DNA from: Saxidomus purpurata
Lineage: Eukaryota; Mollusca; Bivalvia; Venerida; Veneridae
DNA: 64,000 bases
Reading direction: 5' to 3'
Assembly (NCBI GenBank): GCA_022818135.1
Contig: JAFMSR010000008.1
Location: forward strand, 10,640,858 to 10,704,857
Positions 34,656-64,000 of the stretch are shown piece after piece. Position numbers and translations under genes: made by a program. The notes below the pieces were generated by a model that saw nothing but the letters and a program-made list of their open reading frames with translations, had not been told where the DNA came from and ran no database searches. Position 1 is the stretch's first letter; each line of letters starts with the position of its first letter.

Positions 34656-37600
34656 ATGGGTTTCACACAGTTGAGCTGGATCTTTGTTCTCTGTATTTAT
34701 TACTATGGACAAGTAAGTCCATGTGATGAATGTGAGGAATTAAAGACCGAGGTTAGAGTTCTGAACGAGAAAATACAGGAGCTTGAACAGTCTATCAACA
34801 ATTTGAATAAAAGCACAGTGAAAAGGAACGAACACAACATAGAAACATCTAAAGGTAAAATACCATACTATTTGATACATCACTTACTCATTTGTCAGCC
34901 TTTACGACTATCAAATTAGTAATTGATTGATAAACATTTCTGTTTTGAGTTAAGTTTTAAAGTCGATAATGGTCACTTTGAATTTTCTACATTCATTACC
35001 CGACATTTGATAGTTAAATATCAAACTGATTGATACATCACTTATTATACCCCGACAAAGGCGGAGGGATATTGTTTTAGCGTTATACGTCTGTCCGTCA
35101 GTCCGTCCATCCGGAGCCATAACTAAAGATACACTGGCTATAATTTCATGAAACTTAAAATAAGAACAGTGTATACAATAGCATAATACCACGGCGCACG
35201 CGCAACTTTTGTCAAGATTTGCTTGGTATCTCCAGTTATTGCCCTTTAATTGTTATTTCCTCCTATGTTCAATATAAAAAAATAAAAACTTCTATTTCTC
35301 TGTAAATCAGTTCTCAAAATTTAATTGTGATTGGCTCAAATAATTAAATGATCACTTTTTCTAATATCCACACCCTGCCCCTGGATGTTTTTAGAATTGA
35401 GGCCCCCGACCCGGTTATCCTTAAATATTTTATATAGAAACTTAAGATTTTTTTTCTTTTCTGAAACAAATAGTGCTGATACTGTAATGTAACTTACAAC
35501 AACTGAGTTCGGTAGGAGTGTAAAATGCAGAAAAAATAATTACCCCTCAGAGATGAGGCTCCAATAGGGTGGTGAAATTTTAAAAATGCTTCTTTTCTGA
35601 AAAGGCTTGTCCGAATTTTATTCTTTTTGACACAAATAATCAATTTTTTACTCTATAACAACGGAACATTTTGAAACTGGATTTTTACAGAAATGAGGCC
35701 CTTAAGGGGATGTAGTGTTATTATTCTATATAGAAACTTAAAACTTCTTGTCTGAAACAAGTAGTACTGATTTAAATTTACTTACAACAACTAAGTTTTT
35801 TATGACTGTAGTGGCTCTTTTTCATTTTTTTGTTTCATTTGGCAGGGAATATAAACTCGTGAATATTTCCGAATTAATCGTGTTTAACACATTTTCGTCG
35901 ATTTCCGTCATTAAAATTATATTACCTTTCAAAATAGCCGTGATTGATTTATGGTAGAGCATAAAGCAAAAGCTGAAGAAAAAAAAATGTATGGCAGGAG
36001 TTATACCGAAATAGTTCTCTTAATGACAGGTATATTAAAGAATTACTAGAAATAAAAAAGTTTCCGTTTTTGACTAGGATAGTCAAAACGGCAATGTCCA
36101 TTAGTCCGAGAGTATGCAATGTCTTTCTTAAAATTATGAAGGTCACTTTTTGAACGGTAATATCACTTTAATGGTGATGCTTGATCGAACATTTCCATTG
36201 AAATAGAAACTATCTGTATGCCATTCTTTTCTCAAATTTGCGACCACTTTTTCACTTGCTTCCATATAGTATTATGTACCGTCACCTGATATGACCTATT
36301 GCACGTACATGTATAGTTGTTTTACTATGACTATCTAATTAGCATTAGTTCGATCTTGTTATATATGTTCCTGTTACCGAAGTATCTATGATTTTAACAC
36401 TCAGCTCAATGCTTTATTGAAAGATGTAATATCATGTGAAACATCCGATCATTTCAATCATTGTATTACACGTTTCAGTGCGGAAAAGGTCGATACCACA
36501 GGGCAATGTTGCATTCTCTGCATCTCTAAGTTCCGAACTTAGTCATATAGGGCTTGCTCAGATAATTAAATTTGACAATGTTTTGTTGAATGATGGACAA
36601 GGATACAACAAATATTCTGGTGTATTTGTTGCTCCACAAAGTGGGGTAAGTGAATCCATACTTTGTTTTGTTTATTTCAGTTTTAAAGTATAGAAACGTT
36701 CATAAATTGTGCGCTACATTGGGGCTCATTTCTACCATTTTCACCCTTCTGTCGCCCTCGTCACGAAACAAACGACTCGTGTGAAGATCCAATCTTCCAA
36801 AATAATTCGACGACTTGAAGATGTTGCATGATTTCGTATGCTCCTATACAACTAGCTACTTCCGTGTGTTTACCTAATTTAGAATATACTGATAGATACT
36901 GAAAGCCTTTACTCTAAAATCTCTAGAAAACTGGAATGATATATGTTGGCGTAAAAGAAATTCCAATATTCAACTGATTTTTAGACTTAGTTTCAAGCGT
37001 TTTCGGCTATTGTACGCTAGGGTATGGTAACTGTTGAAATGTTGCTCCAACCAGTAAAAGAAATCAACCAATCAAAGCCTTGGCCCTGGAACTGGCTTGT
37101 GAATTTTTAAAATGCTTTCGTCCAAATCATTACGCACAGCAATTACAAGCTGGGAATCAGCAAATCCTGCATATGGAGGCAGTCTGCAGTTTGCTTAGCT
37201 TCTCACACGACACTCGGCTTCACAAGTTTCAAAACCACACACCAAACATCGCAATCAAACACCTGAAACAAGTGTATTGCATTTATAGCATGACCATGTG
37301 TGTCTCAATAAAAACTGTCAGTAATTTCTGTCCAACACCCAAATCTTCACACACCAGCTTAGCATTTTGTTTTTTCAAGTATCGCGAAATCTGATGACAA
37401 AAGTAACACGTTTAACCTACACCTGAAAATTATCTGCAAATGCTGGAACAAACCGCTGCACCATTTCTGACTCTTGAAACACTGTAAATCTAGAAAACAA
37501 ACTCAATCAAATATGGTATCCATACCGTATTTCCAATATTTCAGATCTGACGCCACTGTAAAACTGACGCTCGCGTTCCTAGCTAACTACGGAAACACAT

Positions 37601-40600
37601 GTTGTCGTATTTAAAAGCCATTATGTAATTTCTTCGGGGATCAAGGTCACTACTTTCACTTTCATTAGATAAATAGTCTTAATATTTGACACTTAAGATG
37701 CACATATAGCATGCATTAATATTTTCAACTAAAACCATACACTTGGATCTGCATTTACCTCTAATTTGTATATTTGACCCTAGGCAATATGATATGGCAA
37801 GCGAAATGCACATTAATCCCTTAAACCCTAGGTTTAACTGTTAAACCCAGGGTTTAACAACTCTTAAACCCCTAGTTTCAGGTGCCGTTTGCACATTAAT
37901 TTCTTAAACCGTGGTTTAAAGTCTTAAACCGTAGTTTAAAGTCTGTTAAACCCATAGTTTAAGAGACGACCAATTAAATGAGCTGAAACCACGGTTTAAA
38001 GTGTCACGTGACTCGTTAAAACGACAATTACATACATATTTACTTTAAACTGTGGTTTAAGACTTTAATCTAGGGTTTTACGCACCGAATGCACATTTAA
38101 TCTGTTAAACCCTAGGTTTAACTCTTAAACCCATAGTTTCAGGTGCCGTTTGCACATTAATTTCTTAAACCGTGGTTTAAAGTCTTAAACCGTAGTTTAA
38201 AGTCTGTTAAACCCATAGTTTAAGAGACAACTAATCAAATGAGCTGAAACCACGGTTTAAAGTGTCACGTGTCCTGTTAAACCCCTAGTTTAAGAGACAA
38301 CCAACCAAATTAGCTGAAACCACAGTTTAAAGTATCACGTGACCTTTCACTGCGACGCGTGGAATTTGTGTGTAAACATTCACAATATGACATAGGCTGT
38401 AAAAAACACTCTTTGGTCATTATCTATATGTTATCTTCGGATGTAATTTAGGGGATTTTTGTAACATAACAAGTAACTGTTCATAAAACATTTTAGCGCA
38501 TGGCGTAAACATGTAATTTTATTCATTTATTTGTTTATTTAGTTATCACAATATCATATCTTTATATTTGCGCTTATATCAAAGAAATACTGATCTAACA
38601 TCCGCGTTAAAAATCGACAGTGACAAAGATTTGGAATTGCTTGTATAATTCATATAACTTTGACAGAATGAAAAATACACCTTTTACAGCATTAATGCGA
38701 GAACTGCTGGGGTCGGTAAAATTTGACAGTCTAGATCCGACTTGTATTACCACGGACCGATATACACATAGGTCCGTGATATTACATACATGTATAATGA
38801 AAAATACCTATGCGTATAGTTTTAGCTAAAACATTCATTTAGGGCATAAACATATATCCGTTTCATTGATAGATTTTAGGGTTTTTTATTAATAGAATGC
38901 ACAAATCAAAACCTAGTATACAGCTTAAGTATTTAAGTATATTACAGGTCATTATAAATGTTACGTAATGTCCGGCCATAAAGTATCAATAAGCGAGCAG
39001 ACGAACTGATCATTCGGAAGTGTAAGAGCAGCATTATGGGACATCCGTGCGACAATACCCTTTTAAATAAAACTTCAAAACAGTCCCTTTTCCTTTCTTT
39101 ACATATATTTTATATCACCATAATCTAGAATGATTGTTTTATTCTAACCCGTTTGTGATTCTTAAATAATTCCATAGTTGTTACAGCTTATGCCAGGATT
39201 TATCATATTAACGGCCCTGTGTATACGATCCCTGCGCAAGTTAAAATATTATTAACAACTGTTTTTTTAGTAAACATGATCACATTTTGCGCGTTTTAAT
39301 TTAACTGATCATACAAAGTATAGCAATATGACAATTACGAATTTAAACTTAAAACAGTTCAAATTAGTCAAGTCTGAGAAAAAAAGAAAAAAAATACCAT
39401 TAAAAATAGGAAATGTTACATTTATCATGCCGTTTATGATTATAAAATAACTTAAATTTTATCGGGAGTTGATTACGTCAGTGGCGTGTATTAGCCTTGA
39501 CTTTGACATTTTCTGACACATGTTAGAAACTTCTGCAATATCCCGATAAGAGACAGGTAATAAAACAATGAAGGGTCATAAACCTGATCCACTTTAACCA
39601 AATTTTAGTTGAAGCGGGGTCCTAATATAACGTTTATAGCACGGAGGTTTAAATATTATTCAATTTGTCATAAAAAAATAAAAATTATATCTAGTTATCC
39701 TATATTATGAATATGAGAGGGTGGTGATGTAGAGGTTAAGGTGTCTGTCGCTCATCCCGGCGGTTACGGGTTCGAGCCCCACCGGGTTGCGACACCAGTA
39801 CTGTTTTTTTTTCAGGAAGCAGACTCGAGTGACCGCACAAGTTTCAAGATTTCTTCACAATCTATCTAAATTGAATTAGTACAAACTATAAAACATCATT
39901 TTGCTTTACTTATAAATTTTAATATATCAGGTAATTTAAATGTATTCATACTTAAATGTGACGTGTGAAGAATGCGGCGAGCAACATTCGCGTTAAACAA
40001 CCCCTGCAGCCCAATTTTGCACAAGGGGACACTCACATTAGTCCCTTCATTATTTGGCAAAAGCGGACATTATCCCTTTTCAGTTTTCAAAGCTAAAAAT
40101 TGATTTAAAATCATCATAACGTTATATCACCTGGTGACAAGCTTGTCTGTGCAGATGAAACCACCCCAATCCCTCTAATCCCACCTTAAACAGATGCGAT
40201 ACACCTTCGTGGGTTCGAGCATTGCTACAGAACATGTTTTTTGCGTGAGCAAAACAATACAGTATATTACGGAGGATACGGGTCTGCACGTAGTACTGGT
40301 TCGGCTAAGAAACAATGGTTATAGGTGAACTGCCCGTAAATGAAAAGCTAGAGACACTTATTTTGTATTTACAATTACAACATTCACAACATGACATAGG
40401 CTATCGTCTGCATAATGCATCGGTCAATCATACGACGCAAAACGTAAAACCAAATTAGAATTAATTATTAAATTAATTTTCCACAGATCATGAAATGTTT
40501 GAGAGGCATTTTATTATATCTTACTAAACCTAGTAAAAGTAATGCTGTACAGGCTTCAATGATACTATTTTTCTATTTGCTATTTATCTTGTATAATTAC

Positions 40601-43600
40601 TAGTATGTGAGCTTTAGGCAGTCAAACCTGTGATAAAGACCACCTCCGAAGAGAGACCACCCTATGAATAGACACCAGCAGGGAGATCGCCGTGCACTAT
40701 TTATATATTATACACTTGTATCAAATTTTTGTGCACAACGTAAACTTAAAGAATGTAAGTCAATAACAAAGGGATTATTTGCAGTTTGACAGTTTGCTGT
40801 GGTGTTAAAACTAGTCGTAGTATTGTCTTTGACAAACTGTCGTATTAGACCAACTATCTTATTCGGCGAAGTGTCGTAGTCGACGAAATGTCTTTCGGCG
40901 AAATGTCGTGCACGGCATGGAATCGAGTACTCCTACTGACCATGTCTCTGTATGTGAGAAAATTGTTAGTTTCAAACAGAGAAGAGGAGTCTAGTACTGG
41001 TGTTTAGCAAAAACAATGTTTAGGTAAACTGCCCGCCTGTTAAAATGACTAGCAGCCCCCATAGTAACATGATGTCATGCCGTTACATAGTGGCGCTGTG
41101 AACAAATTTATTAATTCAGTTGCCTGTTTGTATATACATTGAAGTTCAATTTCGGATTGGCTCGATCATTTCCGGTTTCGTATGAGAAATTAAAGTCTAT
41201 GATATATGTTTTTTGTATAAAACTTGTTAAAAGTACATTTTTTTCGGAAATCTATGTTTTCATATACTGTAACCTGTCATAATAGGCCCGTGTAGCTAAA
41301 TATTCTTATTTAACATCCGACATATTGCAAATAGTCAAATAATCAAACAGGTAAGACAACATACTTCTAATGTTTTTACAACAGCCTGCAGTTGAACGAT
41401 TGTCAAAGTGATATGCAATTTATTTATTTGTGACCGTTGATTTTTCGCGAGGGTGTCAGATCAATGTTTCTTTGAAAAAATGGGTTAAAACGCATATATA
41501 AAGAAATATTCTATTGAATGAATGAATGGATAAAAAAACAAGTTAACACTATGCGCTAATCTTTTTCATATCCAAAATTACTTTAAGATATTGTCCAAAT
41601 AATGGTTTATAACGTATAAACTAAATCAAATTTAAAATGCGAAATTAGAAATTTATCAAATACAGATTTTCCACACGTATATCATTCGTATTATATTAGT
41701 GCAAGTAGTGTGTCACGTGACACTTTAAACTGGGGTTTCAGCTCATTTCATTGGTTGTCTCTTAAACTATGGGTTTAACAGACTTTAAACTACGGTTTAA
41801 GACTTTAAACCACGGTTTAAGAAATTAATGTGCAAACGGCACCTAAAACTATGGGTTTAAGAGTTGTTAAACTATACGTTTAAGAGTTAACTGAATTAAT
41901 GTGCATTTGGCGCGTAAAACCCTAGATTAATGTCTTAAACCACAGTTTAAAGTATTGTATGTAAAACATCGTTTTAACGAGTCACGTGACACTTTAAACC
42001 GTGGTTTCAGCTCATTTGATTGGTCGTCTCTTAAACTATGGGTTTAACAGACTTTAAACTACGGTTTAAGACTTTAAACCACGGTTTAAGAATTAATGTG
42101 CAAACGGCACTTGAAACTAGGGGTTTAAGAGGTGTTAAACTATGGGTTTAACAGTTAAACCTATAGTTTAAAGAATTAATGTGCATTTCTATGGCAAGCG
42201 AAATGCACATTAATTCTTTAAACTATAGGTTTAACTGTTAAACCCATAGTTTAACACCTCTTAAACCCCTAGTTTCAAGTGCCGTTTGCACATTAATTCT
42301 TAAACCGTGGTTTAAAGTCTTAAACCGTAGTTTAAAGTCTGTTAAACCCATAGTTTAAGAGACGACCAATCAAATGAGCTGAAACCACGGTTTAAAGTGT
42401 CACGTGACTCGTTAAAACGATGTTTTACATACAATACTTTAAACTGTGGTTTAAGACATTAATCTAGGGTTTTACGCGCCAAATGCACATTAATTCAGTT
42501 AACTCTTAAACGTATAGTTTAACAACTCTTAAACCCATAGTTTTAGGTGCCGTTTGCACATTAATTTCTTAAACCGTGGTTTAAAGTCTTAAACCGTAGT
42601 TTAAAGTCTGTTAAACCCATAGTTTAAGAGACAACCAATGAAATGAGCTGAAACCCCAGTTTAAAGTGTCACGTGACACACTACTTGCACTAATATAATA
42701 CGAATGATATACGTGTGGAAAATCTGTATTTGATAAATTTCTAATTTCGCATTTTAAATTTGATTTAGTTTATACGTTATAAACCATTATTTGGACAATA
42801 TCTTAAAGTAATTTTGGATATGAAAAAGATTAGCGCATAGTGTTAACTTGTTTTTTTATCCATTCATTCATTCAATAGAATATTTCTTTATATATGCGTT
42901 TTAACCCATTTTTTCAAAGAAACATTGATCTGACACCCTCGCGAAAAATCAACGGTCACAAATAAATAAATTGCATATCACTTTGACAATCGTTCAACTG
43001 CAGGCTGTTGTAAAAACATTAGAAGTATGTTGTCTTACCTGTTTGATTATTTGACTATTTGCAATATGTCGGATGTTAAATAAGAATATTTAGCTACACG
43101 GGCCTATTATGACAGGTTACAGTATATGAAAACATAGATTTCCGAAAAAAATGTACTTTTAACAAGTTTTATACAAAAAACATATATCATAGACTTTAAT
43201 TTCTCATACGAAACCGGAAATGATCGAGCCAATCCGAAATTGAACTTCAATGTATATACAAACAGGCAACTGAATTAATAAATTTGTTCACAGCGCCACT
43301 ATGTAACGGCATGACATCATGTTACTATGGGGGCTGCTAGTCATTTTAACAGGCGGGCAGTTTACCTAAACATTGTTTTTGCTAAACACCAGTACTAGAC
43401 TCCTCTTCTCTGTTTGAAACTAACAATTTTCTCACATACAGAGACATGGTCAGTAGGAGTACTCGATTCCATGCCGTGCACGACATTTCGCCGAAAGACA
43501 TTTCGTCGACTACGACACTTCGCCGAATAAGATAGTTGGTCTAATACGACAGTTTGTCAAAGACAATACTACGACTAGTTTTAACACCACAGCAAACTGT

Positions 43601-46600
43601 CAAACTGCAAATAATCCCTTTGTTATTGACTTATATTCTTTAAGTTTACGTTGTGCACAAAAAATTTGATACAAGTGTATAATATATAAATAGTGCACGG
43701 CGATCTCCCTGCTGGTGTCTATTCATAGGGTGGTCTCTCTTCGGAGGTGGTCTTTATCACAGGTTTGACTGCCTAAAGCTCACATACTAGTAATTATACA
43801 AGATAAATAGCAAATAGAAAAATAGTATCATTGAAGCCTGTACAGCATTACTTTTACTAGGTTTAGTAAGATATAATAAAATGCCTCTCAAACATTTCAT
43901 GATCTGTGGAAAATTAATTTAATAATTAATTCTAATTTGGTTTTACGTTTTGCGTCGTATGATTGACCGATGCATTATGCAGACGATAGCCTATGTCATG
44001 TTGTGAATGTTGTAATTGTAAATACAAAATAAGTGTCTCTAGCTTTTCATTTACGGGCAGTTCACCTATAACCATTGTTTCTTAGCCGAACCAGTACTAC
44101 GTGCAGACCCGTATCCTCCGTAATATACTGTATTGTTTTGCTCACGCAAAAAAACATGTTCTGTAGCAATGCTCGAACCCACGAAGGTGTATCGCATCTG
44201 TTTAAGGTGGGATTAGAGGGATTGGGGTGGTTTCATCTGCACAGACAAGCTTGTCACCAGGTGATATAACGTTATGATGATTTTAAATCAATTTTTAGCT
44301 TTGAAAACTGAAAAGGGATAATGTCCGCTTTTGCCAAATAATGAAGGGACTAATGTGAGTGTCCCCTTGTGCAAAATTGGGCTGCAGGGGTTGTTTAACG
44401 CGAATGTTGCTCGCCGCATTCTTCACACGTCACATTTAAGTATGAATACATTTAAATTACCTGATATATTAAAATGTATAAGTAAAGCAAAATGATGTTT
44501 TATAGTTTGTACTAATTCAATTTAGATAGATTGTGAAGAAATCTTGAAACTTGTGCGGTCACTCGAGTCTGCTTCCTGAAAAAAACAGTACTGGTGTCGC
44601 AACCCGGTGGGGCTCGAACCCGTAACCGCCGGGATGAGCGACAGACACCTTAACCTCTACATCACCACCCTCTCATATTCATAATATAGGACAACTAGAT
44701 ATAATTTTTATTTTTTTATGACAAATTGAATAATATTTAAACCTCCGTGCTATAAACGTTATATTAGGACCCCGCTTCAACTAAAATTTGGTTAAAGTGG
44801 ATCAGGTTTATGACCCTTCATTGTTTTATTACCTGTCTCTTATCGGGATATTGCAGAAGTTTCTAACATGTGTCAGAAAATGTCAAAGTCAAGGCTAATA
44901 CACGCCACTGACGTAATCAACTCCCGATAAAATTTAAGTTATTTTATAATCATAAACGGCATGATAAATGTAACATTTCCTATTTTTAATGGTATTTTTT
45001 TTTCTTTTTTTCTGAGACTTGACTAATTTGAACTGTTTTAAGTTTAAATTCGTAATTGTCATATTGCTATACTTTGTATGATCAGTTAAATTAAAACGCG
45101 CAAAATGTGATCATGTTTACTAAAAAAACAGTTGTTAATAATATTTTAACTTGCGCAGGGATCGTATACACAGGGCCGTTAATATGATAAATCCTGGCAT
45201 AAGCTGTAACAACTATGGAATTATTTAAGAATCACAAACGGGTTAGAATAAAACAATCATTCTAGATTATGGTGATATAAAATATATGTAAAGAAAGGAA
45301 AAGGGACTGTTTTGAAGTTTTATTTAAAAGGGTATTGTCGCACGGATGTCCCATAATGCTGCTCTTACACTTCCGAATGATCAGTTCGTCTGCTCGCTTA
45401 TTGATACTTTATGGCCGGACATTACGTAACATTTATAATGACCTGTAATATACTTAAATACTTAAGCTGTATACTAGGTTTTGATTTGTGCATTCTATTA
45501 ATAAAAAACCCTAAAATCTATCAATGAAACGGATATATGTTTATGCCCTAAATGAATGTTTTAGCTAAAACTATACGCATAGGTATTTTTCATTATACAT
45601 GTATGTAATATCACGGACCTATGTGTATATCGGTCCGTGGTAATACAAGTCGGATCTAGACTGTCAAATTTTACCGACCCCAGCAGTTCTCGCATTAATG
45701 CTGTAAAAGGTGTATTTTTCATTCTGTCAAAGTTATATGAATTATACAAGCAATTCCAAATCTTTGTCACTGTCGATTTTTAACGCGGATGTTAGATCAG
45801 TATTTCTTTGATATAAGCGCAAATATAAAGATATGATATTGTGATAACTAAATAAACAAATAAATGAATAAAATTACATGTTTACGCCATGCGCTAAAAT
45901 GTTTTATGAACAGTTACTTGTTATGTTACAAAAATCCCCTAAATTACATCCGAAGATAACATATAGATAATGACCAAAGAGTGTTTTTTACAGCCTATGT
46001 CATATTGTGAATGTTTACACACAAATTCCACGCGTCGCAGTGAAAGGTCACGTGATACTTTAAACTGTGGTTTCAGCTAATTTGGTTGGTTGTCTCTTAA
46101 ACTAGGGGTTTAACAGGACACGTGACACTTTAAACCGTGGTTTCAGCTCATTTGATTAGTTGTCTCTTAAACTATGGGTTTAACAGACTTTAAACTACGG
46201 TTTAAGACTTTAAACCACGGTTTAAGAAATTAATGTGCAAACGGCACCTGAAACTATGGGTTTAAGAGTTAAACCTAGGGTTTAACAGATTAAATGTGCA
46301 TTCGGTGCGTAAAACCCTAGATTAAAGTCTTAAACCACAGTTTAAAGTAAATATGTATGTAATTGTCGTTTTAACGAGTCACGTGACACTTTAAACCGTG
46401 GTTTCAGCTCATTTAATTGGTCGTCTCTTAAACTATGGGTTTAACAGACTTTAAACTACGGTTTAAGACTTTAAACCACGGTTTAAGAAATTAATGTGCA
46501 AACGGCACCTGAAACTAGGGGTTTAAGAGTTGTTAAACCCTGGGTTTAACAGTTAAACCTAGGGTTTAAGGGATTAATGTGCATTTCGCTTGCCATAATA

Positions 46601-47075
46601 TGACACTAAAAGTTTGAAACTGCATACTGCCGCCTTAGATTATGGCTCTTCAGTAGGGTGGAAATTTTGCAGTTACCCGAGTTGTTCGACCATAAACTCT
46701 CATGACTGTGAGAAAAATAGCCGAAAACGCTCTCGCGGTTTAGAATAAGTTTAGAAATTTAACAATATTTTCACTTTTTGAAACAGGTTTTTTCTGTCTT
46801 TTCTGGTTTATTTGTTTGCCTACGTATTCTGTCATATCAATTTTGCTTCAGCAGGGAGTCAAACTTTGTTGGAACTTATGCACAATGGGAAACATGTAAA
46901 CTCGGGTATTGCCGATTCAAGGCAACGGTCACAAGATATTCAAGGGACGAATATAGCAATACTGCGAGTGGATGCAGGCGACAGCGTCTGGGTGCAGAAT
47001 TTCTTTGAGCATGATACCAGTCTTCATTCATATGAGGGTCTTAATTCCTTTTCGGGAACGTTGCTTTATGTATAA
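34656..47075 (+). CDS. Secreted coiled-coil C1q-domain protein, apparent frameshift in exon 3
   Basis: C1q-domain proteins are secreted, usually trimeric lectin-like recognition molecules. Exon 1, 34656-34854: signal peptide (FTQLSWIFVLCIYYYGQV), CDEC motif, then a coiled coil (ELKTEVRVLNEKIQELEQS); donor G|GTAAAA, phase 1. Exon 2, 36479-36645: start of the C1q fold (VAFSASLSS, IIKFDNVLLNDGQGYNKYSG, VFVAPQSG); donor G|GTAAGT, phase 0. Exon 3, 46787-47075: rest of the fold (INFASAGSQTLLELMHNGK, SGIADSRQRSQDIQGTNIAI, LRVDAGDSVWVQNFF, LNSFSGTLLYV, stop). Exon 3's C1q frame is +1 relative to the phase exon 2 delivers; one surplus T in the TTTTTT run at 46788-46793 would explain it. So either a pseudogene/null allele, a homopolymer sequencing error, or a missed splice arrangement. 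Intron 2 (10.1 kb) is mostly the giant palindrome. Confidence 0.8.
35048..35260. repeat. Dispersed mollusc-type repeat with GTCCGTC run
   Basis: Starts TATACCCCGACAAAGGCGGA, GGGATATTGTTTTAGCGTTA, then TCTGTCCGTCAGTCCGTCC, then 'actggctataatttcatgaaact'. In intron 1 of the C1q gene. Confidence 0.6.
35420..35800. repeat. Diverged ~300-bp direct duplication
   Basis: TTATATAGAAACTTAAGATT...CTGAAACAAATAGTGCTGAT near 35430 recurs as CTATATAGAAACTTAAAACT...CTGAAACAAGTAGTACTGAT near 35729, each followed by TTACAACAACT. C1q intron 1. Confidence 0.6.
37787..37792. other. Left copy of 6-bp target-site duplication ATATGA
   Basis: ATATGA directly precedes TATGGCAAGCG, the outer end of the palindrome; the same six bases directly follow the other end at 46598-46603. 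Confidence 0.7.
37793..38345. repeat. Outer terminal array of the left arm (TTAAACC/GGTTTAA motifs)
   Basis: About twenty near-palindromic motifs such as TTAAACCCTAGGTTTAA, TTAAACCGTGGTTTAAA and TTAAACCCATAGTTTAA. They alternate with TGCCGTTTGCACATTAAT, AAATGAGCTGAAACCACGG and GTCACGTGAC. A ~270-bp super-unit occurs about twice. The mirror copy is at 46045-46597. Confidence 0.88.
39716..39900 (+). repeat. tRNA-derived SINE inside left palindrome arm
   Basis: GGTGGTGATGTAGAGGTTAA (A box) and GGTTACGGGTTCGAGCCCCA (B box) at tRNA spacing, followed by a CAGTACTG and pyrimidine tract. The mirror copy is at 44490-44674 on the minus strand. The acceptor stem is absent, so not a functional tRNA. Confidence 0.6.
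40985..41065 (+). repeat. SINE 3' region inside left palindrome arm
   Basis: AGTCTAGTACTGGTGTTTAG, GTTTAGGTAAACTGCCCGCC, TGTTAAAATGACTAGCAGCC: same layout as the SINE tail at 29745 and a second tail at 40290-40340. Mirror copy near 43325-43405. Confidence 0.5.
41708..42189. repeat. Inner terminal array of the left arm
   Basis: Inverted counterpart of the array at 37793-38345, roughly 90% similar by eye, with the same motif order, ending GTGCATTTC at the spacer. The mirror copy is at 42201-42682. The two arrays of one arm differ more from each other than from their mirror images. Confidence 0.85.
44490..44674 (-). repeat. tRNA-derived SINE inside right palindrome arm (mirror copy)
   Basis: Reverse complement of 39716-39900. 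The T/A homopolymer after the B box is 7 here and 9 in the left arm. Confidence 0.6.
46598..46603. other. Right copy of 6-bp target-site duplication ATATGA
   Basis: Follows CGCTTGCCATA, the right outer end of the palindrome; matches 37787-37792. Confidence 0.7.
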
Positions 47076-47586: not shown

Positions 47587-48801
47587 TCCCAGCAGCCCCG
47601 TGCAATAAGTTACGTGGCCACTACGGGGATAGCGTTGTAACACCGGATACAGCTCTTTTCGAATACAGCTCCCCTAATCAAACGTGAGTGAGCTGTGTTC
47701 GGGGTTCTTGTACCTTTTTTCGAATATAGCGCCCCAGTGACCCGATGCAACATAGACGTATCATTCGTTTATACAAATACGCGGCAAAGAACTTATTTAA
47801 TAATAAGGATCCATACCGCTATTCAGGATGCAGTATTTAGTCCTGGGATGTCTGTCTTGTCCGTACGTGTTGGACGGACAGTTCAATGAAAATTTGAAGT
47901 TTTTGCTGATTGAAGAAACCAAGATGGCGGAGCAAAACTACCAAACAAGGTATGTGTCAGTTTAAGTCTCTGTAACTTCAGTCCATTTACGCTTAGAAGT
48001 GTATCTTTGACATTTACTGGCGTTGAAAGGATTACTATTCTTGTTGCATATATTCTTACCGGTCCAAATGCTAAATTTACACTGCAAATTTCAGCCGAAT
48101 GGGTCATTTCTAACCCGATGAAATTTGAATCGAGACTTGTTGCTGTTTTTGCATGGAAAGTGACACGAACGTAAAAGAATCAGCCAAACTTTAACAGTAA
48201 CCTGTCATAAATGTATTATCCTTCACGAAACTGGCTAAATATCAGCTTTGGTTTGCCACTGTTCGTTTTATTCTTGTACTTTCTCTTTCAACAACATACC
48301 GGTACGGTCAGCACGCACCGGTATCACTTTTCCGTAAAAAGTCACCGGTACGGTCGCAAAAACGCAACGGTACAGTCATCGCTCACAATTGTAAATGGTA
48401 CGGTCACCTTTTGATGTGACGCTTTCTTTGTGGGATATTCTAATTTGGGTTGTTTGTTCATTTTTTGCTATTCCTTTTCAGATATTCTGTAACGGATACG
48501 TCTTTACACTTTATTGTACTTTTCAAATCATGATTAATCTGATACTATGGTTTTGACAGGAAAAATATGTAAAAGTGCTGGCTTTGTGCAAATGTCAACT
48601 GTCATACTCATTAAAAAATGCTAGAAACACAATAACAAATAGCACATAGTGCAAATTCGAAAGAAATACCTTAATATATTAAACCCGTTACACTTTTGTG
48701 AAGTGGGGACTGTAAAAAATCATGTAGTTGTCCAGTCGCATCCCCACCAACATAAGTAAAATATATGTATATAATTATGTTATATATTATCACATACAAT
48801 T

Positions 48802-50228: not shown

Positions 50229-51401
50229 AGTGATTATATAGTTCCAACATTTATATTTCTATGTTGCATGGGATGCGACTGGACAACTATAATACACACC
50301 CACTTCACAAAAGTGTAACGGGGTTAATAAATTAAGGTATTCTTTCGAATGTGCACTCTATGCCATTTTCTAGGAATTTTTAATGAGTGTGACAGTTGAC
50401 ATTTGCACAAAGCCTGCATTTTTACATAATCATAGTATCAGATTAATCATGATTTGAAAAGTACAATAAAGCGAAAAGACGCATCCGTTACAGAATATCT
50501 AAAAATGAAGAGCAAATAATGAACAAACAACCCAAATTAGAATAGTTATATCCCACAAGGAAAGCCTCACATCAAAAGGTGACCGTACCGTTTACAATTG
50601 TGAGCAATGACTGTATCGTTGCGTTTTTTACGACCGTACCGGTGACTTGAAGTTACAGAGACTTAAACTAACACATACCTTGTTTGGTAGTTTTTCTCCG
50701 CCATCTTGGTTGACAGTACCGGTATACGGAAACACTGTACCGGTGCGCATTCACGACAGTGAGCCCATAAGGCAAAGAAATGTTAACGGAATGAAGCTCA
50801 TAAACATCAGGGTGTACGACCTGCCAGACGGACGGATAAGACAATAGGCAGGGTAGGACAACACACAGATGGTGGGACAAATAGACGGACGGAATACATG
50901 TATCATGCAGTATATTGAACAGGTGTTAGATGCTTTTAGGCACAGGGGGACGGTGTGTACCTTTTACACTAAACGGGTGTTTTATATGTGTTTTCTGATC
51001 ATTTTCTGACAAAAATCCATTTTACGTATATATACATAAGAAAAGGGGTCTAACTCCGCAAGCCGAAATCGCGATCTTATTTTGACACATCTCAAACAGA
51101 TGCAGATTTTATAGCCGACGTATGGTCTACGAAGTCAAACTATAAAATAATCAATAGTAGATATATTTTGCTTTCAGAAAATGTACAGGTTCCCTTAGCA
51201 AATAGTTCAACTTTTGATGCAAATTCTTTCGAAATCGAAATTTATACTCCAAACACGCGTCTTGAACGAGATCTTGCTACCGCTGTTTACATTATAATAT
51301 CACTACGAAATTCTGAATAAACGCGTTTTGCAAGCTAAAACAATTTAACAGTCAACAAAAGGGTTATTTGGGAACACTTACTGCCAACTTCTCTTTTGAA
51401 A

Positions 51402-51668: not shown

Positions 51669-54367
51669 GTCACTGGCCAGTGGAATATACTCAACACAGG
51701 TAGTTGGTACATAAGTCTGGATCGTGATTATTCCATGTTCCAATTTACAAGTTTAAACAGTTTAACTCATTGAAACATCCCGATATATATGTTGCAGCAA
51801 GGGACATACTTAACAATGGACAGATGAAATTGAAATATAAAGCTGTACCATAGGAAGTATGTGCATTAATGTAGATACACAAAACACTGGTCTATGTCAA
51901 AAAATGTATTGAATGTTGGCCTTCTAATGTTTGTTACATAAAACAATGCCTTATATGTAATTGTCTCTTGTCAGAAACCTGGACATAATGAAAACAGTAT
52001 GATAGAAGAACTGAACTGTGAGATGCACCTTGACTAGAGCGAATTCCTTTTAAGGATGGATTATTGTACGTCGCCCGTCCGTCCGTCATTTGTTTGCTTC
52101 AAAATACATCTCCTCTGAAACCACTGGGCCAATAATGATGAAACTTAACATGGAGGTACCTTGCAGAAAGCTCCACCAAAATTGTTCAAACATTTCAATT
52201 CCATGCAGAACTATGGTTGCTATGGCAACAAATTGAAGAATCTTCTTCTCTGAAATCACAAGGTCTAGAGCTTAGATATTTAGCATGTAACATTGCCTAA
52301 TGGACCACTATCAAGATTGTTCAAATTATCACCCCTTGGTCAAAATTGACTCCGCCCGGGGTGTCACTTGATTTTACATAGGCTTGTATAGGAAACACTT
52401 CTCTTCCTCAAACTACTCTGAAACTGAAAGGCCTAAGCTTAGATATTTGGAATGCAGCATTGCTTAATGGACCTCTATAAAGTTTGCTCAAATCATGACC
52501 CCCGGGTCAGAACTGATCCCGCTTGGGGTCACTTGATTTTACATAGTTTTTTATAGGAAAAACTTTAAAAATCTTTTTCTCCAAAAACACATGACCCAGG
52601 GCTAAGATATTTAGTATACAGCATTGTCTAGTGGACCTTTACCAGGTTTGTTCAAATATTGCCCCTGGGGTCAATACTCGCCCCGTCCAAGGGGTAACTT
52701 GTTTTACACAGACATAGATTCGAAAACTTTTTTAAAAAACTTCTCCAAACCACAAGGTTTAGAGCCTAGATATTTAGTGTATAACAGTGTCTGGTTGACC
52801 TCTTCGAAATGTGTTCAAATTATGCTCCCGGGTCAAAATTGACCCGCCAGGGGATTCACTTGGTATAGGAAAAACTTTAAAATTCTTCTCCAAAGCCAGT
52901 AGGCATAGAGCTTAGACAGTTGGTATGTAACATTGTCCAGTGGTCCTCTACCAAGTTTTTTTAGCTCACATGGCACAAAGTGCCAGAGTGAGCTATTAGG
53001 ATCGCTCGCCGTACGGGGTTTGTCGTCCGTTTGTCTGTCTACCATTTCCTTCAAACAACATCTTCTCTGAAACTACTGGGCCAATGTTGATGAAACTGTG
53101 CAGGGATGTTCCTTGCTTGAAGCTCTATCAAAGTTGTTCAAAGAATTCCATTCCATGCAGAACTCTGTTTGCTACGGCAACAAATAGGAAAAACTTTAAA
53201 AATCTTCTTCTCTGAAACCACAAGGCATAGAGTTTAGATATTTAGCATGAAGCATTATCTAGTGAACCTCTACCAAGATTGTTCAAATTATGACCCCCGG
53301 GTCAAAATTGACCCCGCGCGGGTAGTCACTCAGTTTTACATAGGCTTATATAGGAAACACTTTAAAAATCTTCTTCTCTGAAACAACAAGGCCTAGAGCT
53401 TAAATATTTGGCATGTAGCATTGCCTAGTGGACCTTTACCAAGATTGTTCAAACTAGTACCCCCGGGTCAAAATTGACCCTGCCTGGGGCCGGGGGTCAC
53501 TTGATTTTACATAGGCTTATATAGGAAAATCTTAACAATTCTTGTTCTCTGAAACCGTAAGGCATAGAGATTAGATATTTGACCAGTAGAAATGCCTAGT
53601 GGACCTCTACCAAGATTGTTCAAATTATGACCTTCCCGGGAGGGGGGGTAGGTCTCTTGATTTTACATAGGCTTATATAGGGATATAGGGCCATCTTGGC
53701 CCTCTTGTTTCAAATCATGCCCGTGGGGTCAAAATTGACCACGCACGCCAGAAGGGTGGCTCCTCGTCTTCATATAGAGTTATAGGAGAAACTTAGCTTC
53801 CAATTTTTAGCTACGCCAGGGTGAGCTTTTCTGATCGATGATTGTCCGTCGTCCGTCGTACGTCGTCCGTCGTCCGTCAACATTTTGATTCAAATGACAT
53901 CTCCTCTGAAACCTCTAGGCCAATGTTGATAAAACTATGCAGGAATGTTCCTTGCATGAAGCTCTACCAAAATTGTTCAAAGAATTCCATTCCATGCAGA
54001 TATTTGGCATGTAGCATTGTCTAGTGCACCTCTACCAAGATTGTTCAAATTATGACCCCCGGGTCAAAATTGACCCCACGCAGGTGGGCACTTAGTTTTT
54101 GCATAGGCATATATAGGAAAAACTTTAAAAATCTTCTTCTTTGAAACCACAAGGCCTAGAGCTAAGATATTTGGCATGTAGCATTGTCTAGTGGACCTCT
54201 ACCAAGATTGTTCAAATTATGAGCTCCGGATCAAAATTGACCCCGCACGGGGGTCACTTAGTTTTACATAGGCTTATGTAGGAAAAACTTTAAAAATCTT
54301 CTTCGCTGAAACCACAAGGCCTAGAGCTTAGATATTTGGCAGGTAGCATTGGCTAGTGGACCTCTAC

Positions 54368-56127
54368 AACAACAACAACAACAACAACAAACAACAATAA
54401 CTTTATTTTGTGAAGGTTACATACTAAGTGTACAAAAAGTTTCATACTGCTTATTTCCAGTATGGCCTTCATTTTAACTTTAAAAATATCTTTCATATTC
54501 TCACACACACAAAAGTTCACAGTTTCTCAAAGTATTTAACATGCATGCATACCAACATATAAACATATCCATTACTTTCGACAAACACGCATCAACTTAT
54601 GACATGCAGTCTTATCTATATATCTTTTAATCATGCATATATACAAAAATCAAAATATCTAAGAGAAGCATATCCCGAATAATTGCCTCTTCATCAAGCA
54701 TGATACATATATTTATAATGTCCATTGTATAAAATAACACCAAAATGATTGACATTTCCTATATTAACAGCTCAACCGTTATAAAGCACAATATATGATA
54801 ACTAAGATATTTAAACATCTTAACTATTATTGTTTTTTAAACAATATAATATAATACAATTTATAAATGCAGCATTATATTTCATTATACATATACATGA
54901 TAACTTGATTTATGTCTGCATGATAAACTCCTTCAAAGTGTTCCTGAATGTGCAAATGTTTTGGAGAAGTTTAATACGTGCGGGAAGAGAGTTCCAAATC
55001 TGTGCAGCTTTATAACTGAACGCCTGTTTCAAATAGTTTGTGTTAGGTTTAGCAATATGGAGATCTTTGTGAGTGGATGAACGGAGACCATAGTGGTCAT
55101 TATTAACAAAATTTAGTAAATCAGTGATATAAGTAGGACAATTGCCTTTTTTGCATTTGAACACCAGTAATGCAATATGATATTTGCATCTATTTTCAAA
55201 GGATAAGATATTTGAGTCTCTTAATAGAACCTGAAAGTCACCTGCTTTTGTTTTATTGATTAATTTTACAGCGCGTTTTTGTAGAGATGAAATTTTATTG
55301 GTATCAGATTTATGACAAAGTCCCCAGACATTGCAACAGTATTCCATGATAGGTAATATATATGCGTTGTAGTATAACAGTTTCATTTCATCTGTTAAAT
55401 AATAAGCAACCCTTCTAAAAAGGGCAAGTTTGGAATTAAGCTTTTTAGTAACTATACTAGCGTGGCAACGCCAAGATAGAGTTTCATCAACAGTAACACC
55501 TAGAATTGTATGACATTTTACATTTTCAATGATCGAATCATTAATTTTCAAGTTAAGCTTTTCAGCGCGTTTTATTTTAACACCTGTGCTGAGTAGCATA
55601 CATTTTGTTTTTGACGGATGAAGGGACATATTATTTATAGAACACCAGTTATTAACATTGTCTAGGCTATACTGTAGTTCAGTTTGTATTTTTGAAATGC
55701 TCTCGGCGGACGTATGCAAGGTTGAGTCATCAGCATAAAGGTCTATATTGTCATATTAAATCCTAAAGGCATGTCATTTATATAAATCAGAAAAAGAAGG
55801 GGGCCTAGTATGGACCCTTGTGGAACACCTGAGTGAACAATCATCTTTTTAGAACATGTATTTTTTAGTTTCAGTATTTGTGTTCTGTTTGATAAATAAG
55901 ATTTAAATATTTTTAATGATCTATCTGTGAAATGGTAAGTTTGAGTTTGTGCAATAACATTTCATGGTCAACCATGTCAAAAGCTTTCCTTAAATCAAGA
56001 AAGATAGCACCAACAAAGTTCCAATTGTCGATAGCTTTAAGCCAAGTTTCGATTAAATATGTTAAAGCAGTTTGGCAGGAATTGTTCCGTCTGAAACCCG
56101 ACTGACTTTTATGTATTATATCTGTTT
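54368..56127 (-). mobile_element. 5'-truncated non-LTR retrotransposon (LINE) inserted in the 168-bp array
   Basis: Minus-strand element: reverse-transcriptase sequence starts at 56127 (5' truncated) and ends in a (GTT)n tail, seen as (AAC)n at 54368-54400. It splits one 168-bp unit exactly between CTCTAC and CAAGATTG; no target duplication longer than a base or so is visible. RT motifs in order: SGFRRNNSCQTALTYL and [20 protein letters not shown] (domain A), [20 protein letters not shown] (domain B), DLYADDSTLHT (YADD catalytic box). The C-terminal region reads SLQKRAVKLINKTKAGD and FSYKAAQIWNSLPARIKLL. The motif set suggests the Jockey/CR1/L2 side of LINEs (inference). Confidence 0.9.
54910..55743 (-). 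pseudogene. LINE reverse transcriptase, C-terminal open frame
   Basis: The longest open frame of the LINE: YADD box, thumb (WCSINNMSLHPSKTKCMLLS) and C-terminal domain to a stop at 54910. The preceding domain B (about 55745-55905) is in another frame, with what looks like a 2-bp insertion just before the YADD box, and domain A (55913-56127) in a further one. Not functional as it stands. Confidence 0.88.
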
Positions 56128-56804
56128 CAAGATTGTTCAAATTATGACCCTCGGATCAAAATTGACCCCGCACGGGGGGTCACTTAGTTTTACATAGGCT
56201 TATATAGTAAAAACTTTAAAAATCTTCTTCTTTGAAACCACAAGGCCTAGAGCTAAGATATTTGGCAGGTAGCATTGGCTAGTGGACCTCTACCAAGATT
56301 GTTCAAATTATGAGCCCAGGATCAAAATTGACCCCGCACGGGGGTTCACTTAGTTTTACATAGGCTTATGTAGGAAAAACTTTAAAAATCTCTTCTCTGA
56401 AACCACAAGGCCTAGAGCTTAGATATTTGGCAGGTAGCATTGGCTAGTGGACCTCTACCAAGATTGTTCAAATTATGACACTCGGGTCAAAACTGACCCC
56501 GCACGGGGGGTCACTTAGTTTAACATAGGCTTATATAGGGAAAACTTTAAAAATCTTTTTCTCTGAAACCACAAGGCATAGAGCTTAGATATTTGGCATG
56601 TAGCATTGCCTAGTAGACCTCTTCAAAGTTTGTTCAAATTATGCCCCTGGGGTCAAAATTGACCTTGCCCGAGGGGGATCATTTGTTTTACAAAGGCGTA
56701 TATAGGAAAACTTATTTGGTATATAACATTATCTAGTGATCTTCCACCAGGCAAGTGGACTTGTACCAAGGTGAGCGATATAGGGCCATCTTGGCCCTCT
56801 TGTT

Positions 56805-61100: not shown

Positions 61101-62331
61101 ACTTTTTTCTCGGCTTAAAAAGCTAGTATAATGGTCCTTTTCCAAGTTTCTTAAGGTCAAAATTGGCCAGGGTTTACTTGTTTTCTACTAAATTCTTAAC
61201 ATTTCTTGTCCAAAATCATATGCCAGATTTCGAAATAATTTCGCTGAATTGTTTTTAGTGACCCAGACAAGTATTGCCTAAATATTTACATTCATTAAGA
61301 CACATTGTCGTCTGTTATTCCTACACTGATTTACAGACAACGGTAAGTATGTTTTATGGGCAAAATTGTTTTCGGTTTCTGGCCGACACTCTTGTTTGGA
61401 ATAAGGTATTGCCATGAAAATTGGTATCTATGTATGTATGTAGGTAGCTATGGAGATGTAGTTTAGGATTGCATTTTGAACCCCTGAGATCAAGGTCGCT
61501 GTAATATTTTAATATTTTAAAGATTTGAATGAGGTATCGTCATGAAATGTTGTTTATAAGTAGCTAATATGGAGATATTGCTTTTGGAGTTGCATAAGTC
61601 AAGGTCAAGGTCGCTGTTACAAACTTTAAAAAAAATCAAACCAGTAAGTCGAGAATGAAATGAGGTATTGCCATGAAACTTGGTGTATACATGTAAGTAG
61701 CTTAGATAGAAATTTTCTTGAAATGGCATTTAAGGCCCCTGGAGAAAGATCAAATTCACAGTTATAATAATAGCAAAACAGAAACTGGCCAATAACTCGA
61801 GATTGGAATGTGTTATGCCATGGCACTTGGTATGCAGATAGTTTATAACATAAACTATTGTATTCTACATCCTTCTCATTTCAATGACCGTTATATCTAT
61901 ATAGTTTACTTGCGTAGATACGTGAGTTCAAATGTCGTTTACACACCAGGAAATGACTGGAAGCACTTGTGATTATTTTTTCCTTTAAATATGCAAAGAC
62001 CTCCCGCTGATTGATAGACACTAGGTAGGGCCTACAAATGGGTTAAGTGCAGAAATTAACATGTTTCACGCTAATATGAAGTTAAATTTGTTTTAGGAAC
62101 TGATTGAAGAATTTCAGAAAAACCCTGTGGACGACGGAGTTTCCGACGCAGTAGATTTGTCAATGTGGGACTTTGCAGGGCAGTTTGCGTTTTATGCAAC
62201 ACATCAGACTTTTCTGTCAAGACGAGCTGTATATTTGCTTGTCACAGATATTTCCAAACATGTCCAGGGTATTTTTGAAGATGACAGTTGCTTCATCGAT
62301 AGCAAAGGCAAAACGACGTGGAACATATATG
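57985..62331 (+). CDS. Internal exons of a Roc/ROCO-type GTPase gene (partial)
   Basis: Three plus-strand exons splice in one frame: 57985-58173 (donor G|GTACTT, least certain), 60468-60595 and 62097-62331. The third encodes VDLSMWDFAGQFAFYATHQT and FLSRRAVYLLVTDISKH. The DxxGQ switch II, followed by FYATHQxFLSxRAxYxLV, is diagnostic of Roc domains as in the bivalve ROCO/MFHAS1-like GTPases. The preceding two exons form a strongly acidic linker (DASHDDEDVDVDGSISSIDE; EDAPDSDPDDFSVD) between the region after the P-loop and switch II. The P-loop exon (upstream) and the rest of Roc/COR (downstream; the donor at 62332 leaves phase 1) are not seen. Roc GTPases act as intracellular signalling switches; this one's pathway cannot be told. 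Confidence 0.75.
59071..59716. mobile_element. Foldback derivative of a Tc1/mariner transposon with transposase remnant
   Basis: Inverted flanks: GGAATCATAGTTATATATG and TGCAAAAATGATGGCCAAAG + GTTAATAGAAAATGGGGGAA on the left, inverted at 59580-59716. Between them (minus strand, about 59405-59165) a decayed transposase end reads SSDLNPID, VWDILDKRVGRRPNPPAYV, NQLRQALIQEWNNIS, SMRRRCTAAVNSIGGHTRY and stop: the typical Tc1-like C-terminus with DLNPIE-type and GGHTRY motifs. Stops and changes make it inactive. Part of the transposase end (GATGACTGGCCCGTTAAAAG) is repeated inverted at 59520. Lies in an intron of the Roc gene. Confidence 0.82.
60020..60240. repeat. Dispersed mollusc-type repeat with GTCCGT words
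   Basis: TCCCCTGGGGGATATAGGAA, CCGTCTGTCCTTCC, CCGACCGTCCGTAACATCTC and 'acaccttgaagtttgatgaaacc' match the dispersed class at 35048. Intronic in the Roc gene. Confidence 0.5.
60468..60595 (+). CDS. Roc GTPase gene, acidic linker exon
   Basis: 128 nt, acceptor CATCTTTCAG|, donor AAG|GTAACT. Encodes NKEDAPDSDPDDFSVDKTGN and ESTTFKSEGPREGYISNHLK. Joins the 62097 exon in phase 0. No motif on its own; supported by splice sites and phase. Confidence 0.68.
61380..61860. repeat. ~120-bp tandem repeat with 'GGTATTGCCATGAAA...TCAAGGTCGCTGT'
   Basis: Three to four units: AATGAGGTATTGCCATGAAA, CTTGGTGTATACATGTAAGT, AGCTTAGATAGAAAT..., TCAAGGTCGCTGTTAC. Related in its AAGGTC core to the array at 1-480. 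In a Roc gene intron. Confidence 0.75.
62097..62331 (+). CDS. Roc domain exon with DFAGQ switch II
   Basis: Exon of 235 nt, acceptor TTTGTTTTAG|, donor G|GTGAGC. It starts ELIEEFQKNPVDDGVSD, has the WDFAGQ motif ~30 residues in and ends SKGKTTWNIY. The motif order fits Roc rather than Rab/Ras GTPases (Gln after DxxG, then F-Y-A-T-H-Q). Confidence 0.85.
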
Positions 62332-64000
62332 GTGAGCAACATTGTCAAATTTTAAAAAAAAATATGTTAAACATATGTAGGAGACACGAAACAGCAGAAA
62401 TGAGAAATATCATGATATACCTTACATGCATATAAGGTTATATCAAAGGAGAATCCAAAGGGGAAATAACAAGTTGACCCAACATTAAAAGTTTCTGTTA
62501 TAAGCACGAGGCTCTACCGAGTTCCCGCAAAACAGTTACCCTAGGTGACGGATATTTCCATCTGAACCAAATGTCTCATGATGGAAACGTTTTCGAAACC
62601 GTCTTGCACTTAAAAGTGGACTTACCGAAGTGACATTAATCATTTAAAAACAAACGTTATTCAGATGTTTTGTTTGGGAAAGTGACGTAACATTGCTTAT
62701 AACCTTACGTCACAAGTAATTCACGAGAGTTTTCTGACAAGGGGCGGGGCGGCTGGGCATATCAACAGAAATACAGATCCAAGAAACTAACATCTTAGGT
62801 ATTGTTAGATATAATGTAGGTAATTATAAAAACACAGAGTTGATTAATTAACAGCTTTTCGGAAGTAATCTATTTTAATTTTTAATACTTCCCCTTCTGA
62901 AATGTCTGGATGCCTAGAGTGATGGAACCTATGCTGGCGGTATCCTTATGCTGGCGGAATTTCCGAAAAACGGTTATTTACAGAAAAACAGACGAAGGCA
63001 TATTTTTCAAAGTATATTCAGCATGGACAGTCATTGATATGTTTTTACGGCAAACGTAGTGATAGGCGCGCGTGCGACTCTGTGACGTCACAGCAGCCGA
63101 TACAGTTGTTCTCGATCCATAATTTTCGCGAGAAAAAATCTAAATATAGACATCAAAACCACCCAGTTAAAGTCAGCATTTTTGATAAAACTGATTTCTT
63201 TTGTATAGAAAAATATATTCTATGGAAACTTTTACAAATTCATCGTTAGAAAAGCTCATTTCAAGATTTATCACACCCCTTTCACGGCTGTCAATTTTTT
63301 GACATATTGCGCGAAAGTTTTGTTTCATAGATGCATTTTATTTTTACAACCATTTTAAGTAGTTTATTATCAGGATCACATTTATAACTATATGTGCATT
63401 TTGAATGAAAATATAAAAATTATGGAACTCTAAGCGAATGGCTACACATGATATTCATTTTACTGGCTTTCGTCACGAATAACAGTGTGTGTGGCTGTAC
63501 CTGTACAATGTACTACTCCGCTATACTAAGAAGTGGATGCGATGGAATGTGACACCTGGATACGCTATGAGTGTTTAATTGTTTCCCAAACAGTTAAAAG
63601 ATCAATGTTGATCTTGGTATCGTCACTAAGATTATTAAGTGGCTACGTCTGAGGGAATAGTAACATTGCCGGAATAATAAATCATAAACCCGATGGAATA
63701 CTTGTAGAAATACATTATAGTGTCTTATTTTCAAGTTCTAATACAGTTTGGTTTGTAAATCGTTATTCAATTTTAAAGTTGTTGAATTCTATTGCTGCAA
63801 GACAATAATTATTTTGCATAAAATAGACATTGTGAATGAAAAAGCATGTTCATGATATAGTATTTTGTGTGCACAATTAAAATTACTGTATTGTAATTTT
63901 ATCTCTTAGTAGTTAATATTTAGGCTTTAAAAACTGTTTCCCACCTGTAGGTTGTCAGATATCACATACCGCGAGCATTGGTTCCTTTCGGGGTGAAATT
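62332..64000. other. Intron/3' flank of the Roc gene
   Basis: Contains the inverted counterpart (62516-62790) of the element abutting GCNT exon 1. The rest is AT-rich; the next Roc exon was not found, and the ORF at 63034-63249 has no support. Confidence 0.5.
62516..62790 (-). mobile_element. Second copy of the 7.3-7.7 kb element, one hairpin arm only
   Basis: GAGTTCCCGCAAAACAGTTA, CCCTAGGTGACGGATATTTC, CATGATGGAAACGTTTTCGA, TAATTCACGAGAGTTTTCTG and GGCATATCAACAGAAATACA match 7310-7610 in inverted orientation. The partner arm of the terminal hairpin is missing, so the copy is truncated or the hairpin of the 7.5-kb copy is a later duplication. Confidence 0.72.

Follow-up and report, generated by a model that had tools for sequence, protein, structure and literature searches.

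How an 8.8-kb, nearly perfect palindrome came to lie inside an intron is the question raised by a 64,000-nucleotide stretch of the genome of the bivalve Saxidomus purpurata (assembly GCA_022818135.1, contig JAFMSR010000008.1, positions 10,640,858 to 10,704,857), hereafter called the window. Long near-perfect palindromes are usually attributed to local rearrangements. The palindrome of the window, which lies in the intron that splits the C1q domain of an immune-type gene, seems instead to have come ready-made through transposition. Our preferred reading, to which we give a probability of about 0.8, is that two units of a non-autonomous DNA transposon were joined tail to tail and that the resulting inverted dimer then inserted as a single unit. 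The part of this reading that the sequence carries comprises a monomer family, intact outer ends, a 6-bp duplication around the dimer and related uninterrupted sites, while the joining step and the enzyme responsible for it are proposed below.

Architecture and insertion site of the palindrome

Self-BLAST of the window returned the inverted repeat over positions 37793-46597 as a single match of 8,810 columns, for a total length of 8,805 bp. The original prediction, made from the letters of the window, had described two 4,397-bp arms around an 11-bp spacer repeating the element's own terminus, and both self-BLAST and the arm alignment agreed with it. Between the arms, 4 positions are substituted and 4 indels occur, all of the latter in homopolymer runs; over aligned letters the divergence is 0.09% (4 of 4,395). 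The left unit (4,397 bp, 37793-42189, forward strand) has an intact outer end and, by comparison with monomer ends, lacks the final 10 bp of its inner end (GCTTGCCATA). The right unit (42190-46597, reverse strand) is a complete 4,408-bp element with the 19-bp termini TATGGCAAGCGAAATGCAC on either end. In the arm alignment, the centre reads GTGCATTTC, then TATGGCAAGCG, then AAATGCAC; the 11-bp TATGGCAAGCG (42190-42200, forward strand) constitutes the right unit's entire inner terminus, and the full 19-bp terminus at the centre belongs to that unit. An exact search for the pattern ATTAATGTGCATTTN{0,30}AAATGCACATTAAT, corresponding to a tight end-to-end junction, found no place other than the window centre.

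The terminal inverted repeats (TIRs) of the window element, of about 480 bp, are built of 20-, 82- and 186-bp sub-repeats, a feature of foldback-type elements. In the left unit, the outer TIR (37793-38271, forward strand) holds two sub-repeats of about 186 bp (37833-38020 and 38096-38281), and the inner TIR (41714-42189, reverse strand) is about 91.5% like it across 480-490 columns of self-BLAST. The arms had been said to encode no protein; indeed, no stop-to-stop frame of at least 90 amino acids was present inside the element and a six-frame Pfam scan of the left arm showed no domain. Rfam and ARAGORN found nothing, and the exact terminus was not found among viral contigs. By eye, a tRNA-like stretch with a B-box-like GGTTCGAGCC was seen at 39727-39795, with its mirror in the right arm, where ARAGORN calls no tRNA.

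The whole palindrome is flanked by ATATGA (37787-37792 and 46598-46603), followed by TATGGC on the left and preceded by GCCATA on the right. These flanks are identical at 6/6 positions, with a probability of about 0.0004 by chance given the base composition. The centre of the dimer exhibited no target duplication and no split-end remnant, and the 10-bp shortening affects one side only. This arrangement bears on two explanations by local events. An assembly or library foldback, in which one monomer was traversed and then retraced, predicts the reverse-complemented left flank after the second arm; that arm instead finishes with end 1, and ATATGA and the continuation of an interrupted repeat come after it, so that a foldback is very unlikely. 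Half of the arm differences (4/8) being homopolymer lengths, typical of read errors, would suit such an artefact, but four substitutions between the arms and 10 bp missing at the centre on one side would not. Also very unlikely is an inverted duplication, at the site itself, of a monomer that had inserted there beforehand, whether through breakage-fusion or through template switching, with gene conversion perhaps acting between the arms afterwards. Such a duplication would put end 2 beside the right duplication, whereas both window duplications abut the outer end 1, and four single-arm differences remain in spite of any conversion. A second inverted dimer, found on contig C11 without a clean duplication and described below, could have had such an origin.

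On the left, positions 37175-37788 lie in a dispersed repeat of older date, which is 77-78% identical in 39 other listed places and which served for an empty-site comparison. The palindrome and one ATATGA were deleted by script, the flanks were joined and the resulting construct was aligned to the related repeats. The first paralog ran ungapped through the join with 522/670 identical columns, of which only 35 bp lie to the right of the join. None of the 7 paralogs examined among the 39 showed a gap near the join, the identity on its right being 26-30 of 32-36 letters in six of them and 12/15 in one. The repeat similarity thus crosses the insertion site but stops soon after, covering only 12-36 bp of the right flank in the construct that lacks the palindrome. 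The ATATGA copies round the dimer, their absence at its centre and the uninterrupted paralogs together argue for insertion of the whole dimer. Judged from these sequence features, the inverted dimer was very probably inserted as one unit, in agreement with the proposal of the original prediction that it was mobilised as such. Elsewhere in the genome, the flank repeat forms an array (C359:26688-51008) in which most copies are spaced by about 1,738 bp.

Solo copies of the element and age of the dimer

The assembly from which the window was taken (1.135 Gb, 4,232 contigs) was searched for other members of the family, to which we refer by our own contig (C) and copy (L) numbers. The possibility, raised with the original prediction, that solo 4.4-kb copies never occur elsewhere is answered by the presence of many of them. 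They measure about 4.4 kb, end in TATGG..CCATA, have TIRs of about 480 bp and in most cases stand between exact 6-bp duplications of their own. The TATGG..CCATA ends were present in the 15 full-length monomer rows aligned, L022 having one base changed further in. Identical 6/6 flanks were found in 14 of 20 tabulated elements, the window dimer included; the exceptions are L015 and L024 (5/6), the C11 dimer and a 9.1-kb copy on C1 (4/6), and L012 and L035 (1/6), and the table includes L035 and the C1 copy, which are probable second versions of L012 and L027. Among four further copies, three had exact 6-bp flanks and L041 did not. Allowing at most 2 mismatches, the terminus occurs 326 times in the genome (162 + 164), with positions known for the first-listed places only.

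L012 and L035 are probably two versions of one locus. The 9.1-kb version (C1:9972177-9981271) and a 4.3-kb version (C2836:7149-11481) of the element have the right flank AAAAACGGATAC in common and probably represent two alleles or haplotigs of one locus. A 10.7-kb form was found at C7:26646992-26657716 and C5:22816652-22827336, with CTTTCA and GTAGTG, respectively, on both sides; the two copies are about 99% alike in the stretches compared and contain about 6.5 kb of extra internal DNA. Spacing of the ends points to further copies of this form at C12:2065939-2076637 and C288:15516-26215. Frames of up to 158 amino acids were present in the longer forms, with no clear coding in the copies read; the domain scans covered the left arm of the window, part of the C7 copy and three frames of C7 and C1. 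L032, L036/L037 and L043/L044 have one and the same end variant (CC type) on either side, a sign that their two TIRs may have exchanged sequence. By coordinates only, very short stretches separate family ends at C2:33842529-33842626 (98 bp) and C10:12490083-12490446 (364 bp).

The element had been taken to be old and its dimerisation recent. The recency is borne out, with arms 0.09% apart against 1.25% for the nearest of the 15 aligned monomers. The dating of the element by its TIR divergence of 9% did not hold, because a left/right difference of about 8-9% recurs in other copies and is therefore not a clock.

Other paired ends and the joining of two units

Two separate copies lying side by side or nested, and inverted by chance, could also produce two facing elements. 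The family does nest: at C607:5317-24159 (L048, L011), one member sits inside the TIR of another, with GTTTCA on both sides of the inner element, the middle of which was read in part, and outer flanks AACGTG. Both duplications and the remnant are clearly recognisable there, unlike at the palindrome, where the centre has neither a duplication nor a remnant of a split end and where only one end is truncated, by 10 bp. Two independent monomer loci may differ by as little as 0.23%, the value for the closest aligned pair, but the window arms are closer still, and an origin from two independent insertions is very unlikely. The C607 junction (L011) had itself been considered as a third, mixed dimer and was rejected on the sequence further left, which corresponds to the nested insertion. 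C384 (L034) carries a right part near-identical to that of C607.

A census of same-type facing ends was made with exact matches, 100/104 CC-type ends being paired by script and 83/83 TC-type ends by eye; it is blind to other end sequences, mixed-type pairs and copies owning the 4 unlisted CC-type ends. Facing ends 7-10 kb apart were those of the window (8,805), C11 (8,615), C1 (9,095, not a dimer) and C5 52821059/52829931 (8.9 kb), the last of which has an extra end in between and looks nested, as judged from end positions. No third clear dimer of 7-10 kb was found among these exact same-type facing ends. The pair C18:2872870-2884022, 11.1 kb apart, was read in part. The 9.1-kb C1 and 10.7-kb C7 elements were rejected as dimers on their sequence, and the 10.7-kb C5 element from two end stretches only.

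The second inverted dimer (L021, C11:4025839-4034453) has 8,615 bp and belongs to another subfamily, its nearest monomer being L020 at 1.1%. Its right arm begins at AAATGCAC, 11 nucleotides inside the end, and the break in the window lies 10 nucleotides inside; this near coincidence at two centres is suggestive, with two cases only. A genome search with its right flank, made to find a second allele of this dimer, recovered the first 300 bp at no other place.

We propose the following route for the window dimer. At its 3' end, an excised or copied-out element would become linked to an identical molecule, a sister copy; alternatively, the element end would be closed as a hairpin to its own other strand and then replicated, the sequence favouring neither of these two versions. 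One strand would be cut or trimmed 10 nucleotides inside the end, so that one full terminus remains as the 11-bp centre. A loop of 10-11 nucleotides made of one strand of the terminus is what would be expected if the 5' strand were cut or trimmed at this distance. The product would have two identical intact 5' ends outside, which a transposase acting in trans could bind as a normal pair, pasting the 8.8-kb linear dimer into the intron. A different origin of the joint is unlikely, namely that the family transposase makes same-end joints itself, its first strand transfer hitting the other strand or the sister 10-11 nucleotides inside the same end. Inverted linear dimers would then be a by-product of a eukaryotic copy-out/paste-in reaction, to be pasted in as 8.8-kb palindromes.

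Several observations weigh against joining followed by insertion as one unit. An exact search for scars of cutting 10 nucleotides inside both ends (TATGGCAAGCN{0,30}GCTTGCCATA) gave 0 matches. The family transposase was not found, the six-frame Pfam scan being empty for the left arm and for the extra part of the 10.7-kb C7 form. Among the 63 rve_3 matches listed (150/471 candidates scored), none was near the listed family termini when compared by eye, and the two inspected sit, by eye, in apparent Ty3-type retroelements. The arms of the C11 dimer differ at 18/4,118 positions (0.44%), within the range of separate monomers (0.23-0.45%); these differences are partly clustered, and the clustering may reflect consensus error. 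Its flanks, CAAACT and CAAAAC, match at 4/6 positions with no clean duplication, and the inner end of its left arm is cut back by more than 300 bp; the C11 dimer is therefore no demonstration of unit insertion. As to the source of the window arms, 25 substitutions are common to both and present in none of the other 17 aligned rows, and of the 4 arm differences two are derived changes of the left arm and two of the right. As a control, three monomer pairs were found to share 22, 26 and 71 private substitutions, so that the changes common to the arms show close kinship only. These sequence comparisons favour, without proving it, a single source copy for the two arms; the end-to-end joining of two sibling copies of very recent origin is less likely but possible.

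Host gene, significance and relation to known systems

The placement of the palindrome in a C1q intron was likewise upheld. Three exon-like stretches, with borders and labels read by eye and therefore approximate, together give a C1q domain matching PF00386 at 127/127 positions (E=1.4e-13). On the forward strand, an exon with a signal-peptide-like start and a coiled-coil-like stretch (34656-34865) precedes the first (36502-36645) and second (46854-47075) exon parts of the domain, which are separated by the intron of about 10.2 kb that holds the palindrome. Transcribed with the gene, the palindrome would presumably form an enormous hairpin in the C1q pre-mRNA. To the right of the gene, a second inverted repeat (83%) pairs positions 48339-48768 with 50247-50648, followed by satellite-like direct repeats (52093-56717), 77-95% alike with shifts of about 166 bp. 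The window also contains a reverse transcriptase fragment (54910-55755, reverse strand) scoring under the Pfam cut-off, an open reading frame for a Core-2/I-branching enzyme (7595-8671, reverse strand), a short self-complementary element (16413-16655, 86% over 252 columns) resembling a miniature inverted-repeat transposable element, and a Roc GTPase exon (62097-62435, forward strand).

These results suggest that a fused transposon pair can move. It helps in separating the alternatives that one genome contains monomers together with another dimer and a nested insertion. Fused pairs would be a tangible origin for large inverted repeats within genes, with hairpin RNA and fragile sites as consequences, and they raise the testable question of how the ends of an IS3EU-like element are dealt with.

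Maize double Ds and other composite transposons also consist of paired elements in inverted orientation, and their outer ends can act jointly. Double Ds is one element nested in another, whereas the clam dimer exhibits no nesting, only end-to-end fusion. In the literature searched by titles and abstract starts, no mobile inverted dimer of a eukaryotic DNA transposon was found, which is not proof of absence. Polinton/Maverick elements are large coding elements with a DNA polymerase and AG..TC termini; the window element differs from them in its TA..TA termini and in the lack of any coding seen in it. The 6-bp target duplication is shared with Polinton, for which the consulted part of the account in PMC10045372 gives the same length.

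The closest likeness in ends is to IS3EU, with TA..TA termini and usually 6-bp target duplications, and to GingerRoot, with 6 bp and mostly TA..TA termini, as given in the consulted part of PMC10045372. The window termini TATGGCAAGCG..CGCTTGCCATA, the TATGG..CCATA ends and the 6-bp duplications resemble these and, taken as letters, would fit an IS3EU/GingerRoot assignment; the clam family differs in its very long repeated TIRs and in that no transposase was found. Inverted dimers are absent from the IS3EU/GingerRoot account in that part of PMC10045372. Long composite TIRs made of short repeats are described for Tm1 of root-knot nematodes, together with a 9-bp duplication and a Phantom-like transposase, in the consulted portion of PMC3169594. 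The clam element too has long composite TIRs with internal repeats; as far as that portion goes, it differs from Tm1/Foldback in its 6-bp duplication and in that the foldback of Tm1 lies within one element, whereas here two elements are fused. Finally, copy-out insertion sequences pass through an intermediate in which two termini are joined across a short spacer and which integrates later, according to the consulted parts of PMC7780238 and PMC3219604. The joint described there links opposite ends of one element, whereas the clam joint links the same end of two copies.

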